Source of the DNA: Halorussus halophilus
Lineage (GTDB): Archaea; Halobacteriota; Halobacteria; Halobacteriales; Haladaptataceae
Direction: 5' to 3'
Assembly (NCBI RefSeq): GCF_008831545.1
Contig: NZ_CP044523.1
Location: 1,736,001 to 1,800,000, forward strand
DNA length: 64,000 nucleotides
Of the stretch, positions 11,845-62,088 are shown in pieces. The position numbers and the translations under genes were made by a program. The notes under the pieces are model-generated. The model saw only the letters and a list, made by a program, of their open reading frames with translations. It did no database searches and was not told the origin of the DNA. The first letter of the stretch is position 1; each line of letters starts with the position of its first letter.

Positions 11845-12085
11845 GGAACCAACTCGGCCCGGACGTTTCAGGTCGCTCGCGTGCGAGCGACCGCCAGTCC
11901 GTGTAGCCAGAACGGCCACCGACGGCGGCCGTTCGGGCCGAGCTACAATGTCGCTTCAGGCCTGCTCGAACCTTCTCGTTTTGATTCCCGGCGGCCGCAT
12001 AGACGCGGCCTTAGAGGGAATCAAACCTAACAGATTTGAATCTGAGCGCGCACACGAGAGTGCGCTTAGGCAGATTCAAATCTGT
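11845..12085. repeat. Cluster of four perfect hairpins with a shared repeat module
   Basis: This gap holds four hairpins: 11871-11892 (arms GGTCGCTCGC, 2-nt loop), 11910-11934 (arms GAACGGCC), 11980-12025 (outer arms TTTGATTCCC, inner arms GGCCGC) and 12030-12085 (perfect 15-bp outer arms, inner GTGCGCT pair). The first hairpin with its flanks (11847-11906) matches the module at 30131-30200 read in the opposite orientation. The last hairpin overlaps the 3' end of the DUF35 gene (stop 12066-12068) and may act as its terminator. No gene is seen between 11707 and 12065. Confidence 0.75.
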
Positions 12086-19521: not shown

Positions 19522-19609
19522 GGTATCATGACTGACGCTGGGCTACTTTGCTCTATCGCCGACTCTTGGTTTGTGGTGACGACGAAGCAATGATTTCGTT
19601 CCGACCAAT

Positions 19610-19785
19610 CGGCGCGCGCTGGCGTGACCTCGTGTCACGCCGAACTGCGCGAGGGATGAGTATCGCAGGCTGGAGCGTAGCGGAAGCCGAGAAACGCAGT
19701 CGGGTGGGGAGGCGTGTGGCCCCCGCGGTGCGGTGCTGTGCAGTGCGGTCTCTCCTCGGTTTCGGGAGTAGCGAGCCTCACTGCG
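19610..19785 (-). repeat. Dispersed mosaic intergenic element, copy A
   Basis: Read on the minus strand this copy runs from GCAGTGAGGCTCGCTACTCC through the C-rich block CCTCCCCACCCGACTGCG to CATCCCTCGCGCAG. It then has a perfect 8-bp hairpin (19621-19641, arms GGCGTGAC, 5-nt loop) and ends AGCGCGCGCCG. It lies in the 524-bp gap between the acyl-CoA synthetase and trpS genes. The rest of the gap (19786-20045) shows no gene. Small ORFs here are by-products of the repeat. Confidence 0.8.
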
Positions 19786-20045
19786 TTCGTCGGTGCAATG
19801 TAGCAGTTGAAGCGACCGACAATTCTTCCACGAAAGCCCCCGGACGTTCGCGGCCGTTCGGCGACATATCGACGCAAACCGCACGTCGATAGGGGTCGCT
19901 GAACGCCCAAGACGAGCGCGAACGCCCGGCCCCTTTCAGTCCCGCCGTATGGTTTCCTCAGTCAGCTTTCGCTGTCGGTTGAGTAGCCTGCAATAGCCTC
20001 TCCAACCCCGACTACACGAAAGACAAAAACCCAAACCCCGAAAAT

Positions 20046-30097: not shown

Positions 30098-30130
30098 GTT
30101 TGGCTCGGCCCGTGATACCTGTTTTCTACG

Positions 30131-30462
30131 GGCTACGCTGACTGGCGGTCGCTCGCTCGTGAGCGACCTGCAACGTCGGGGCGAGTTGGTCTCTGCTTCG
30201 TATTTGAAGTTTTGTGTGGCTCTCGCGGTGCTGTGCGGTTTCTCCTCGGTTTCCGGAGTAGCTAGCTTCTCTGCGCTCATCATCGATTCGTGAAATCCGA
30301 TACAACAGTCCCCGTCTACTTCCGAAAGCCCCCGCACGCTCGCGGTCGCTTTCATTCCCGCGAGTAGTGCGGAGCGAAACTCCGCAGACCATTCGAACGG
30401 GCGAAGCCCGTGAGAAGACGAAGCGAGGGGGAAGTCGAAAGACGAGTGGAGCGAGTCTTTCG
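30131..30462. repeat. Dispersed mosaic intergenic element, copy B, with hairpins
   Basis: From 30131 to 30200 lies module 2: GACTGGC flank, hairpin with arms GGTCGCTC, then GAGTTGGT and CTTCGTATTTGAA. It joins the core (30205-30276, minus orientation: AAGCTAGCTACTCC...CCGCACAGCACCGC). Three more perfect hairpins follow: 30368-30386 (TGCGGAG), 30397-30411 (ACGGGC, loop GAA) and 30436-30462 (CGAAAGAC). The remaining parts of the 433-bp gap (30098-30530) contain no credible gene. Confidence 0.75.
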
Positions 30463-42288: not shown

Positions 42289-42306
42289 GTTCTGCGCGTT
42301 GTAGAG
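42275..42306. repeat. 16-bp tandem duplication across a stop codon
   Basis: TCTGCGCGTTGTAGGT is followed at once by a copy differing in its last two bases. The first unit contains the TAG stop of the BNR-like gene (42286-42288). Confidence 0.8.
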
Positions 42307-42368
42307 TTGTGATTGTGCGCGCGTAGCGTCGTGACTCGATTAGGGGGCACAGCCCTTTCAGGGTAGTC

Positions 42369-42485
42369 GGACTGGCGGATTACGAGGTCGAAGACACTGC
42401 TGACTGACTCGCCAGCTATCTGCTCGCAACCGCGCGAAACGTCCGGGGAGAGTTGGCTTTGGTTTCGTATTTGAATGTATGGGTG
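42369..42485 (+). repeat. Intergenic module 2, divergent copy
   Basis: It shares GACTGGCGG on the left and AACGTCCGGGG...GAGTTGG...TTCGTATTTGAA on the right with the module at 30131-30200 and, inverted, at 11847-11906. The hairpin interior is replaced by unrelated sequence. What follows (42480-42530) looks like a decayed core copy. The 42289-42727 gap holds no gene. Confidence 0.6.
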
Positions 42486-42727: not shown

Positions 42728-42922
42728 CGGTGAAGCTAGCTATTCCCGAAACCTGTGAGAAACCGCCCAGCACCGCGACCGCACCGCAAGACCCACGTCC
42801 TCCCCACCCGACTGCGCGACTCAGTACGAACGGCGCGACGAGTCGCGCCGTTCGGGCCTCCTTGCTCGTCCCTCGCGCAGGCCGGCGCGACTCAAACAAC
42901 GAGTCGCGCCAGCGCGCGCCGG
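42728..42922 (+). repeat. Dispersed mosaic intergenic element, copy C
   Basis: The core GCGGTGAAGCTAGCTATTCC...CTCCCCACCCGACTGCG is followed by a perfect 12-bp hairpin (42828-42853, arms GAACGGCGCGAC, 2-nt loop). A TGCTCGTCCCTCGCGCAGG block and a second hairpin come next (42893-42910 region, arms GGCGCGACTC, 7-nt loop), then AGCGCGCGCCGG. It is the best-matched partner of copy D1. Confidence 0.8.
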
Positions 42923-56349: not shown

Positions 56350-56483
56350 TGCAACGGGGTTGTCGTTGCGGGCGTTTAAGTGCGGTGTTCTGGAAGTGGG
56401 TGGGATGGTTGGAAAGAGTTAGTGAGTACGTCGGTGCTGCTTCTCGTTCCGGAGGAACGAATATACGAAGGATAACGGACACA

Positions 56484-56633
56484 GAGAAGCTTCCTGCTCA
56501 CACGATACAAAGGAGAACCGCACAGCACCGCTCCGCGAGGGCACACACCTCCCCAACCGATTCCTTCGCTAACGCTCAGTCATCCCTCACGTGAACGGGC
56601 GAATCACCTCTGGGATTCGCCCGCACGCGCCGG
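56484..56633 (+). repeat. Dispersed mosaic intergenic element, copy D2
   Basis: This is a diverged copy: AGAAGCTTCCTGC...GAACCGCACAGCACCGC...CACACACCTCCCCAACCGA...GTCATCCCTCACG, then a hairpin 56597-56622 (arms GGGCGAATC) and GCACGCGCCGG. It faces copy D1 (minus strand), so the two form an inverted pair in the dph2-ylbF gap. The gap 56350-56978 has no gene. Confidence 0.7.
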
Positions 56634-56670
56634 TCGTCAGCGAAAATACGCGAAACTGAGTTCATGTCAT

Positions 56671-56866
56671 CGGCGCGCGCTGGCGCGGCTCAATGCCGCG
56701 CCAAACCCGTGCGAGGGATGAGCAACGAAAGCCCGACAGACGCGACACGTCGCGCCGGTCGTACTGAGTCGCGCAGTCGGGTGGGGAGGTGTGTGGCCGG
56801 TGCGGTCGCGGTGCGGTGCTGTGCGGTCCCACCTTGGTTTCGGGAGTAGCTAGCTGCACTGCGTCA
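56671..56866 (-). repeat. Dispersed mosaic intergenic element, copy D1
   Basis: Minus-strand reading: GCAGTGCAGCTAGCTACTCC...CTCCCCACCCGACTGCGCGA...CATCCCTCGCACGG, then a perfect 9-bp hairpin (56681-56703, arms TGGCGCGGC, loop 5 nt) and the end AGCGCGCGCCG. It is the most complete copy after copy C and shares the CGACTCAGTACGA block with it. Confidence 0.8.
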
Positions 56867-56978
56867 CATAGTTCTAATAAGGCGAGACTGATTTCTCAGC
56901 GACAGCAACTAGCTCCGACAACCCAAGATAACGTCTCCATCCGGCACATCTAAAACGCCACAGGTCTAAGCCCGCGAC

Positions 56979-59838: not shown

Positions 59839-60327
59839 ATGCCTCGCTCTCCATCGCAGTCGCTCGGGTGGCACGACCGAATCGAGCAGTACACGCCGGA
59901 CGGCGCGCTCGGCAGGACACTGTTCGGAGTGGTCTTCGGCCTCGGTCTCGGTTCGTTCCTGTTCTTCGCGGGTATCGTGCAGGTGACCGGCCCGGTCTCG
60001 CCGCTGTTCCTGAGCGAACTCGTCGGACTCGCCTCGGTGCCGGTCGGTTCGGCATTGCTGGCGATTTCGCTGGTTGTCCTCTGGCCGGTGTACCTCTCGT
60101 TGATTGGCAATCTTGAGTCGGTGAAAGAGTACGAAGTCGGGAGAAGTGAGCGTGTGAGTAGCGATGCGAGAGTGCGACGCGACGAAGACGACCCCGAAGA
60201 GATTCTGAAACGACGATACGCGGCCGGTGAACTCTCTCAGCACGAGTTCGAACGTAGGTTGGACGGGGTTCTGGGCGTGGATTCTGGACAGGGTCGGGAA
60301 ACGCAAGTCGAACACGAAATCGAGTGA
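59839..60327 (+). CDS. Two-helix membrane protein with SHOCT domain
   Basis: The protein has 162 residues. Two membrane helices (about 29-52 and 60-90) are followed by a charged loop and a C-terminal SHOCT motif (EEILKRRYAAGELSQHEFERRLDGVLG). SHOCT is a short helical oligomerisation motif common in haloarchaeal membrane proteins. The start is ATG 59839, after TATA-like TTATTTTAC. Confidence 0.85.
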   Translation: MPRSPSQSLGWHDRIEQYTPDGALGRTLFGVVFGLGLGSFLFFAGIVQVTGPVSPLFLSELVGLASVPVGSALLAISLVVLWPVYLSLIGNLESVKEYEVGRSERVSSDARVRRDEDDPEEILKRRYAAGELSQHEFERRLDGVLGVDSGQGRETQVEHEIE

Positions 60328-60360: not shown

Positions 60361-60693
60361 GCAGTGAAGCTATCTACTCCCGAAACCGGGAAGACCGCAC
60401 CGCGACGGCCACACACCTCCCACCCGACTGCGTTTCTCGGGTTCGGAAGACGCGACCCGAATGGTCGCGTCTTCCGCGCTGTGATACTCGTCTCCCGGCA
60501 GACAAACCGCGTCTGCCGAGCTGCTCGAAAACCGAAGGTTTTCGGCATTGCAGGACCGGAGGTCCTGCAAGCTGTCAGACGTAGTCTGACAACATCACGA
60601 AAGGGCTTCGCCCTTTCGAACGACTTCGTTCACTGCGTTCACGAAGACCTCGCACGTGTCTGGCCGCGGCCTCAACGCCGCGGCCAGCGCGCG
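60361..60693 (+). repeat. Dispersed mosaic intergenic element, copy E, with an array of eight hairpins
   Basis: The core (60361-60435: GCAGTGAAGCTATCTACTCC to CCCGACTGCG) is followed by consecutive perfect palindromes. These are 60445-60475 (13-bp arms), 60496-60518, 60526-60544, 60548-60570 (10-bp), 60573-60591, 60598-60618 (9-bp), 60618-60631 and 60660-60687 (10-bp). Loops are mostly 3-8 nt (GAA, GGA, GTA, TTC). It ends with CAGCGCGCGCCG. The gap 60328-60735 has no gene. Confidence 0.85.
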
Positions 60694-60735
60694 CCGTTCC
60701 CGAGGACAAAGGTCGTGAAAGAGACGCCCAACTTC

Positions 60736-62088
60736 CTATTCTGTCCTCACTTCCACAGTCGAGTCCGACCCTGAAGCCGAACTGTTCCGGACGAACGACT
60801 CGTCGCCAGCGAGCAAGACCACCGACTCGTCGCTGACCCTGACCACGCGAAATCGGAGCGGGCCGTCAAGCCAGATGTCGCCTGATTGCTCGCCACGGGC
60901 CGCGAGATACTCCGTTAGGGTGGTTTCGAACTCGTTGGCTTCCGCTGGGGAGTCCCAACGAGTCGCCCAGACGAAACTCCGGTTCGGGCCTTCGACTGGC
61001 ACGACTTTGTCGTTGCCCCAGCCGTCGGCACCGCTCGACGCCCGCGAAGCGTTCAGTTCGGTCGCGAGGAAGATTCGCGTCATCAACTCGCCGTTGGTGT
61101 CGGCGAGTCCGACCGACCGGTCGTCTGTGAATGCCGTCGAGACCGAGAGTGGCTTCGGCGGTTCTGACCCCGGCGTCAGATTGTGAAGCAACTCCTCGGT
61201 CGTTCGCGGTGGGTCGTCGTACACTGTTTCGAGACCCGACGGGGAGTCGAGTCGGGCGTCGAGGTACCGGTAGCCGAAGTAGTAGCGCGCCAGCGAGTAC
61301 TGGGCCGCCGAGGGGGCGTTTCGGTACTGCGCGTTCGAAATCGTCGGCGAACCACGCCCCCCGAGGTACTCGCGGTCGTAGGCGACCTCGGTGTAGACGC
61401 CCGCACCTTCGACGACGCCGAGGTAGACCAGATACGTGTCCCGAGAGTAGTCGTCTCGGAGCGAGAGCGCGCGCTGAAGTCGCGTGAACGCATCGCGCTG
61501 GAACTGCACCGTGTGGGTGTACTCGTGGGCAAGCGTCCGCTCTAGACTCCGTTCGTAGCGCGGCGCGGTCAGGCGCTCGTTCACGACGACTGAGTACGCC
61601 GACGGCACGTAGGCCGCGACGGTGATGCCAGTCGGTCGGGAGTCGTCGCCGTCGTCCGATTCTCCGTCGTCTCGTTCGCCACCACCCGAATCCTGTCCGA
61701 CACCCATCACGCCGAGAAACGTCCGACTGGTCGTCGATTGCCCGCTCCCAGAACCACCGTTCGGACCGCTCGGCGAGGCCAACTCCTCGGGAGATTTAAC
61801 GAGCAGAACCGTCGGCGGCGAAGCGTTCGCGCCGAGCAGTCCGATAGTTCTCCCAAACGTTCGCTCGTGGTCTATCGGGAGCGACCCGCCGCTGACGGGG
61901 ATGTCGTAGCCGGATTCACCACTCTGTGTGGTCGCGTTCGAGTCGCTGGGAACGGTCGTCGTCTCGACGGGGTCGTTCGCGTCAGGCGGGGCACCGTTCC
62001 CAACGGCGTTCGTCGTCGGATTCGCAGCGGGGGCCGTACACCCCGCGAGCAAGAGACAGAAGACGCAGACGATAGCGGTCCGTGACAC
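60736..62088 (-). CDS. Hvo_1808-like surface lipoprotein with zinc-protease motif
   Basis: The protein has 450 residues. A Sec signal with lipobox LLAGC (Cys17) precedes a low-complexity Gly/Ser/Asp region (about 105-150). The metalloprotease signature HEYTHTVQF (HExxH) is followed by GAGVYTEVAYDREYLGG. Its overall order matches the haloarchaeal Hvo_1808 family of surface proteins. Cell-surface anchored; peptidase activity is plausible but unproven. Confidence 0.85.
   Translation of the reverse strand: MSRTAIVCVFCLLLAGCTAPAANPTTNAVGNGAPPDANDPVETTTVPSDSNATTQSGESGYDIPVSGGSLPIDHERTFGRTIGLLGANASPPTVLLVKSPEELASPSGPNGGSGSGQSTTSRTFLGVMGVGQDSGGGERDDGESDDGDDSRPTGITVAAYVPSAYSVVVNERLTAPRYERSLERTLAHEYTHTVQFQRDAFTRLQRALSLRDDYSRDTYLVYLGVVEGAGVYTEVAYDREYLGGRGSPTISNAQYRNAPSAAQYSLARYYFGYRYLDARLDSPSGLETVYDDPPRTTEELLHNLTPGSEPPKPLSVSTAFTDDRSVGLADTNGELMTRIFLATELNASRASSGADGWGNDKVVPVEGPNRSFVWATRWDSPAEANEFETTLTEYLAARGEQSGDIWLDGPLRFRVVRVSDESVVLLAGDESFVRNSSASGSDSTVEVRTE

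Follow-up and report, generated by a model that had tools for sequence, protein, structure and literature searches.

A hairpin array in Halorussus halophilus is probably a nest of small mobile repeats and holds an enlarged form of a class-wide double-hairpin cassette

We analyzed a 64,000-nucleotide stretch of the Halorussus halophilus genome (contig NZ_CP044523.1, positions 1,736,001 to 1,800,000; hereafter "the window"), which contains a dense array of hairpins at window positions 60431-60700. Small non-coding mobile repeats, one nested in another, probably make up this array, and their hairpins would evolve in DNA by template switching. The new part is a class-wide, 58-nt double-hairpin cassette together with its DNA-style covariation.

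The hairpin array and the mosaic element that hosts it

The array lies between two convergent genes, one on the + strand ending at 60327 and one on the - strand ending at 60736. Its DNA is non-coding, and we rejected a protein-coding array: the overlapping ORFs are chance ORFs, and none of the host-element copies, of which we located at least 107 in the genome, overlaps a gene predicted from codon usage. The array and its host element comprise the following features.

60366-60432, + strand: leader of the host element, starting with GAAGCTATCTACTCCCGAAACC and ending with CCTCCCACCCGACTGCG, common to the at least 107 intergenic copies
60444-60476, no strand assigned: H1 of the host element, a perfect hairpin that varies between copies, arms 14 bp, loop 5 nt
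60493-60649, + strand: module M, made of two hairpins, split here by the cassette; some host copies have it, others do not
60496-60518, no strand assigned: first hairpin of module M, CGGCAGAC-AAACCGC-GTCTGCCG, arms 8 bp, loop 7 nt
60522-60623, + strand: four-hairpin cassette, 102 nt inserted where GAGC meets CTTCG, left boundary ± ~1 nt
60526-60544, no strand assigned: outer hairpin 1 of the cassette, CGAAAACC, arms 8 bp, loop GAA
60548-60570, no strand assigned: extra hairpin in the cassette spacer, TTGCAGGACC, arms 10 bp, loop GGA
60573-60591, no strand assigned: extra hairpin in the cassette spacer, TGTCAGAC, arms 8 bp, loop GTA
60598-60618, no strand assigned: outer hairpin 2 of the cassette, CGAAAGGGC, arms 9 bp, loop TTC, followed by the conserved AACGA
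60625-60645, no strand assigned: second hairpin of module M, the weak eighth of the array, TTCGT/ACGAA (60625-60629/60641-60645), 5 bp, loop 11 nt
60660-60687, no strand assigned: H2, a variable hairpin preceding the 3′ end of the element, arms 11 bp, loop 6 nt
60688-60695, + strand: motif that closes the host element at its 3′ end, CGCGCGCC

The preliminary description of this DNA had announced eight consecutive palindromes, and our search confirmed them: seven are perfect hairpins whose arms measure 8-14 bp, and the eighth is a short, weak 5-bp stem. The arm range given there (5-13 bp) is right at its lower end, whereas the longest arm measures 14 bp; the triloops GAA, GGA, GTA and TTC are exactly as stated, and the four triloop arm pairs, said to differ, are indeed unlike one another. 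The chance of such an array had been called negligible, in agreement with the seven stems with arms of at least 7 bp that we observed, compared with a mean of 0.17 and a maximum of 3 in 2000 dinucleotide shuffles. The single-strand fold also stands out from shuffles, with z = -12.4 for DNA of the + strand, -10.9 for DNA of the - strand and -11.1 for RNA of the + strand. Further long-hairpin concentrations of the window (e.g., 42827-42910 and 56596-56703) are copies of the same host element only.

When the host copies are compared side by side, they display one mosaic order: a leader (consensus GAAGCTAGCTACTCCCG...CTCCCCANCCGAYTGCG), H1, a stretch ending in CTC(A/G)TCC, the optional module M, CTCGCGCG, H2 and the end GCGCGCC, the slot of module M lying between CTCRTCC and CTCGCGCG. 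The genome contains 86 matches to the leader core with at most 2 mismatches and 112 matches to its start, whereas the reversed-pattern control gave 0-1. The gaps occupied by 107 copies are tandem in 59 cases, divergent in 33 and convergent in 15; since gene 3′ ends are thus not preferred (15/107), we rejected a role of the element as a terminator or mRNA end. About 16 tail-to-tail pairs were recognized by eye, in which one member carries H1 and its partner a different central part. The core is found in 16 of the 18 species of the genus and in 96/391 Halobacteria genomes (33 of 86 genera), the named records belonging mostly to Halorussus, Halosimplex, Haladaptatus and other haloarchaea. Elsewhere, the H1 slot is filled by different yet near-perfect hairpins, with 1566 Watson-Crick pairs out of 1588, 5 G.T and 7 A.C; the finder prefers good stems, so that this mismatch rate is a lower bound, while the balance of G.T to A.C is unaffected. 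H2 has 77 distinct arms in the 115 copies examined, its commonest loop being ACGAG-like.

Two other repeats came to light. Window positions 19522-20045 (- strand) and four other loci (L012, L269, L308 and L345) carry another mosaic repeat, in which the conserved ends GGGACTGAAAGGGGCC ... GGGGGCTTTC enclose paired sequence that varies; it often lies immediately 5′ of the host-element leader and is a cassette acceptor too. Three copies of a repeat with the order GGCTCGGCCC...GGGCTACG...GACTGGCGGTCG and an AT-rich box, TTCGTATTTGAA, nearby are found at window positions 11857-11960, 30098-30240 and 42289-42480, possibly forming a small RNA gene family. Two sister species have a sequence similar to the copy at 30098, located after the orthologous gene.

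A class-wide cassette and its insertion sites

The four triloop hairpins (60526-60618) are one 102-nt insert, which is an enlarged form of the double-hairpin cassette. Its position is the junction of GAGC with CTTCG between both hairpins of module M, and not within a loop. A near-identical block, with four hairpins in the same order, is present at C1:2417838 (L304), within another copy of the host element, and a second four-hairpin form with the same layout and different arms is found at C1:2209904 and at C1:1137877, the latter inside a different host repeat. Since the four hairpins move as a block, the earlier suggestion that the array was built up locally, hairpin by hairpin, is unsupported. 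An assembly artefact, a possibility raised beforehand, is unlikely because the same block recurs at a second locus and its relatives are found in 63 genera. The two-hairpin form occurs four further times in the genome, once beside a tRNA gene. The cassettes L299 and L306 adjoin tRNA genes, L299 with a repeated tRNA 3′ end.

The cassette has the layout T(G/C)GTY-(hairpin)-T(C/G)ATCA-(hairpin)-AACGA and a length of 55-62 nt, usually 58. Its ends, T(G/C)GTYCGAR and YTCGRACGA, are short imperfect terminal inverted repeats. We searched 391 Halobacteria genomes for the second hairpin with the pattern TSATCACGAAA-N11-TTTCGAACGA (at most 2 mismatches), which favors certain arms but whose free positions nevertheless pair, and found it in 200 of them, in 63 of 86 genera, while the reversed-pattern control gave 0. 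The two-hairpin cassette is also carried by 32 haloarchaeal plasmid records; it was not found on plasmid PL47, and no plasmid closely matches the target array as such. Carriage by viruses or phages was rejected, as the cassette is absent from the viral_contigs (exact pattern) and phages collections.

Comparison of empty and filled sites shows that the cassette inserts precisely into the loops of hairpins. At four loci (L376, L390, L392 and L400), it lies within the right-end palindrome of tnpB (IS605-type) elements, a palindrome that is the expected end of omega RNAs. In its empty form, seen on plasmids of Halapricum desulfuricans and Haloferax larsenii, GCCTCGGGG directly adjoins CTTGACCCCGAGGC and the site reads GCCTCGGGG-CTTGA-CCCCGAGGC; in its filled form, seen at L376, L390 and L392 and on a Natribaculum luteum plasmid, TCGTT-(hairpin)-TGATGA-(hairpin)-AACCA separates GCCTCGGGG from CTTGACCCCGAGGC. 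Right ends of tnpB elements without a cassette are common, and at L351 and L365 the cassette stands directly upstream of a tnpB gene. Likewise, an empty second hairpin of module M has a loop of 11-12 nt and a filled one a loop of 69 nt, which is 58 nt more than the 11-nt form. We compared 35 distinct junctions: insert length ranges over 55-62 nt and is most often 58 nt (16 junctions), the preceding base is G in 32 and the following base is C in 32. Target duplication was seen neither at these 35 junctions nor between the empty and filled tnpB right ends or module M loops. Serial insertion, one of the processes proposed at first, is borne out by these three sets of sites. The cassette flanks are weakly more complementary than swapped flanks, with stems of at least 7 bp in 15 of 62 cases compared with 11% expected, some loci being entered in both orientations in the count of 62. 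Because this excess is weak, cassette copies need not all occupy hairpin loops, and we dropped the idea that the cassette always sits in one.

In our reading, the nest has three layers. A leader-H1-H2 mosaic element lies in the gap of the two convergent genes and carries the two-hairpin module M. The cassette, with its two outer triloop hairpins, occupies the junction of both module M hairpins, and its spacer is enlarged here by two extra triloop hairpins. More generally, members of the cassette family insert cleanly, with G on one side and C on the other, where palindromes already present have their loops or junctions; the end palindromes of tnpB (IS605-type) elements are among these targets.

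The preliminary description had called for a comparison of related strains, which we carried out between species. At window positions 56350-56978, the composite element occupies one and the same gap in two sister species, where its hairpins differ and extra ones are present; in other species this gap is either 114 nt long without the element (one species) or carries a remnant only (one species). Hairpins were thus gained, lost or exchanged at this site, although independent insertions into the same gap are possible as well. No insertion event between strains was observed, and the distance between these species is large. This gap is a good place for studying hairpin exchange between species. 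At the site orthologous to the target array, G004, G006 and G014 have no element, which is weak evidence as their neighbors agree on one side only.

Stem and loop evolution and the competing explanations

The cassette arms change while remaining paired. In 125 rows from 61 genomes, we counted 25 distinct arms and 102 perfect hairpins, and the stem pairs were Watson-Crick in 1095/1125 cases, G.T in 8 and A.C in 10. Stem pair 4, for instance, is A-T in 50 rows and G-C in 73, with only 2 intermediates. Of the 125 loops, 91 are GNA or its complement TNC (expected 1/8, p = 3.5e-54); C(GNA)G triloops, as in the GCGAAGC mini-hairpin, are unusually stable in single-stranded DNA. Loops also occur in both orientations: on the arm CGAGAGAGC, whose orientation is fixed by the flanks, TTC is found 18 times and GAA 5 times, TCC 5 times and GGA 3 times. 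These counts come from the flank-fixed set, and earlier, equal counts of GNA and TNC were discounted as some cassettes had been counted both ways.

According to published work (PMC8794818, PMC8604942), template switching leaves its mark at hairpins as loop inversion and as multi-base compensatory change, in which both arms change jointly. Templated copying between arms, already proposed in the preliminary description, is the best reading of our data because pairing is near-perfect despite divergence, G.T is not in excess and loops are inverted. More broadly, the empty and filled sites, the paired changes and the inverted loops support its claim that a process acts on hairpins in DNA. We infer that template switching causes the paired arm changes and the inverted loops: after a mutation in one arm, replication would switch template to the other arm, both arms would be rewritten to match and the loop would sometimes be inverted, so that perfect hairpins would persist while their sequence drifts. 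The substrate would be single-stranded DNA, either of the lagging strand or in an extruded cruciform. Selection for stable DNA hairpins, for example by a cruciform-binding protein, could also keep the arms perfect without template switching. That the class-wide ~58-nt family of hairpin pairs with GNA loops, which has no genes, reaches new hairpin loops through hairpin copying during replication or repair and without a transposase, its stems perfect but drifting, is a tentative proposal that we hold as possible rather than probable.

RNA selection tolerates G.U, and an excess of this mismatch over its mirror mismatch is expected on one strand. A structured non-coding RNA, or a part of an omega RNA, maintained by selection on RNA folding would fit the strong RNA fold (z -11.1) and the paired changes in stems, as well as the finding of some cassettes in the 3′ part of tnpB genes, the region that encodes omega RNAs (PMC12558985), but G.T is no commoner than A.C in either the cassette (8 vs. 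10) or H1 (5 vs. 7), and loops take both orientations relative to fixed flanks. Moreover, the host copies are spread over tandem, divergent and convergent gaps, tnpB right ends without a cassette are common and no Rfam family matches, nothing having reached gathering level and the best weak matches being due to chance. Because changes are paired, G.T is not in excess and loops are inverted, we favor DNA-level template switching over RNA selection, which we consider unlikely. It is improbable, too, that the repeats are REP/BIME-like or IS200/IS605-type (PATE) elements moved by an HUH transposase (TnpA or RAYT) acting on single-stranded hairpins, even though this would agree with the hairpins, the absence of target duplication and the association with tnpB elements, and the tail-to-tail inverted host-element pairs resemble REPINs. 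When the presence of PF01797, the Y1 (HUH) transposase family, was compared with that of the cassette and of the host element, no mobilizing enzyme of the cassette was found: two sister species in which we counted 40 and 46 host-element cores lack PF01797, and of the 20 Halobacteria genomes listed as lacking it, 10 carry the cassette, one of them in 11 copies, which is about the same half as overall (200/391). The earlier lead toward an IS200/IS605- or RAYT-like TnpA was accordingly not borne out, and the inverted ends and perfect arms of the cassette likewise argue against such a transposase.

The birth of each hairpin on the spot by replication errors, giving a local array with no mobile parent, might be argued from the four mutually different arm pairs and from the fact that perfect stems can arise in one step through template switching (PMC8794818). 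It is very hard to reconcile with the same four hairpins standing in the same order at C1:2417838 and with homologous outer hairpins in 63 genera, and a purely local origin is refuted, although replication errors may be the source of the two extra spacer hairpins.

Likeness to known elements and significance

Judged by their described behavior, the small mobile repeats (SMR) of Haloquadratum would be the nearest known kind of element. SMR-A and SMR-B of Haloquadratum walsbyi are short, non-coding repeats with inverted ends that cause no target duplication and insert into near-terminal palindromes of IS605-type elements, as mobile elements inside mobile elements; SMR-A is ~110 bp long, and copies of one SMR type are >95% identical (PMC3119063). 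Compared with this description, the cassette is likewise short (usually 58 nt) and non-coding, has imperfect inverted ends, leaves no target duplication and is found in the right-end palindrome of tnpB elements. Its length is 58 nt for two hairpins or ~102 nt for four, next to the ~110 bp of SMR-A, and it differs in its class-wide spread and in stems that vary freely by paired changes. PATE are non-coding, palindromic, present in many copies and targets of smaller repeats, and share their ends with IS605-type transposons (PMC3119063). The host element resembles them in being non-coding, multicopy and palindromic and in accepting smaller repeats; it differs in forming tail-to-tail inverted pairs.

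In the double-hairpin elements of fungal and other mitochondria, two tandem hairpins form the mobile unit. Set beside them by description, the cassette shares the two tandem hairpins, although theirs is organelle DNA, and the T(C/G)ATCA spacer and GNA loops of haloarchaea are not known from them. REP, REPIN and BIME elements with RAYT (PMC3116915, PMC2817692) are similar in their multicopy intergenic palindromes, inverted pairs and mosaic build, whereas the repeats described here have no link to a Y1 transposase, stems that are perfect rather than imperfect and a stem sequence that is not conserved. Hairpins (PMC8794818) and inverted repeats (PMC8604942) attributed to template switching have in common with ours the perfect arms, the multi-base compensatory change and the loop inversion; those cases concern rRNA and yeast genes, while ours are non-coding mobile cassettes with no sign of RNA selection.

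About half of the haloarchaeal genomes that were sampled carry the cassette, and its empty and filled sites are clean. At ~58 nt, it is to our knowledge among the smallest discrete mobile DNA units. Paired substitutions without wobble bias, together with flipped loops, make it a natural test bed for the hypothesis that template switching, and not RNA selection, can maintain perfect hairpins. Covariation alone, which is often read as proof of a functional RNA, can originate in DNA, and caution is needed in such readings. The cassette also has a bearing on how tnpB right ends, and hence omega RNAs, gain extra hairpins.
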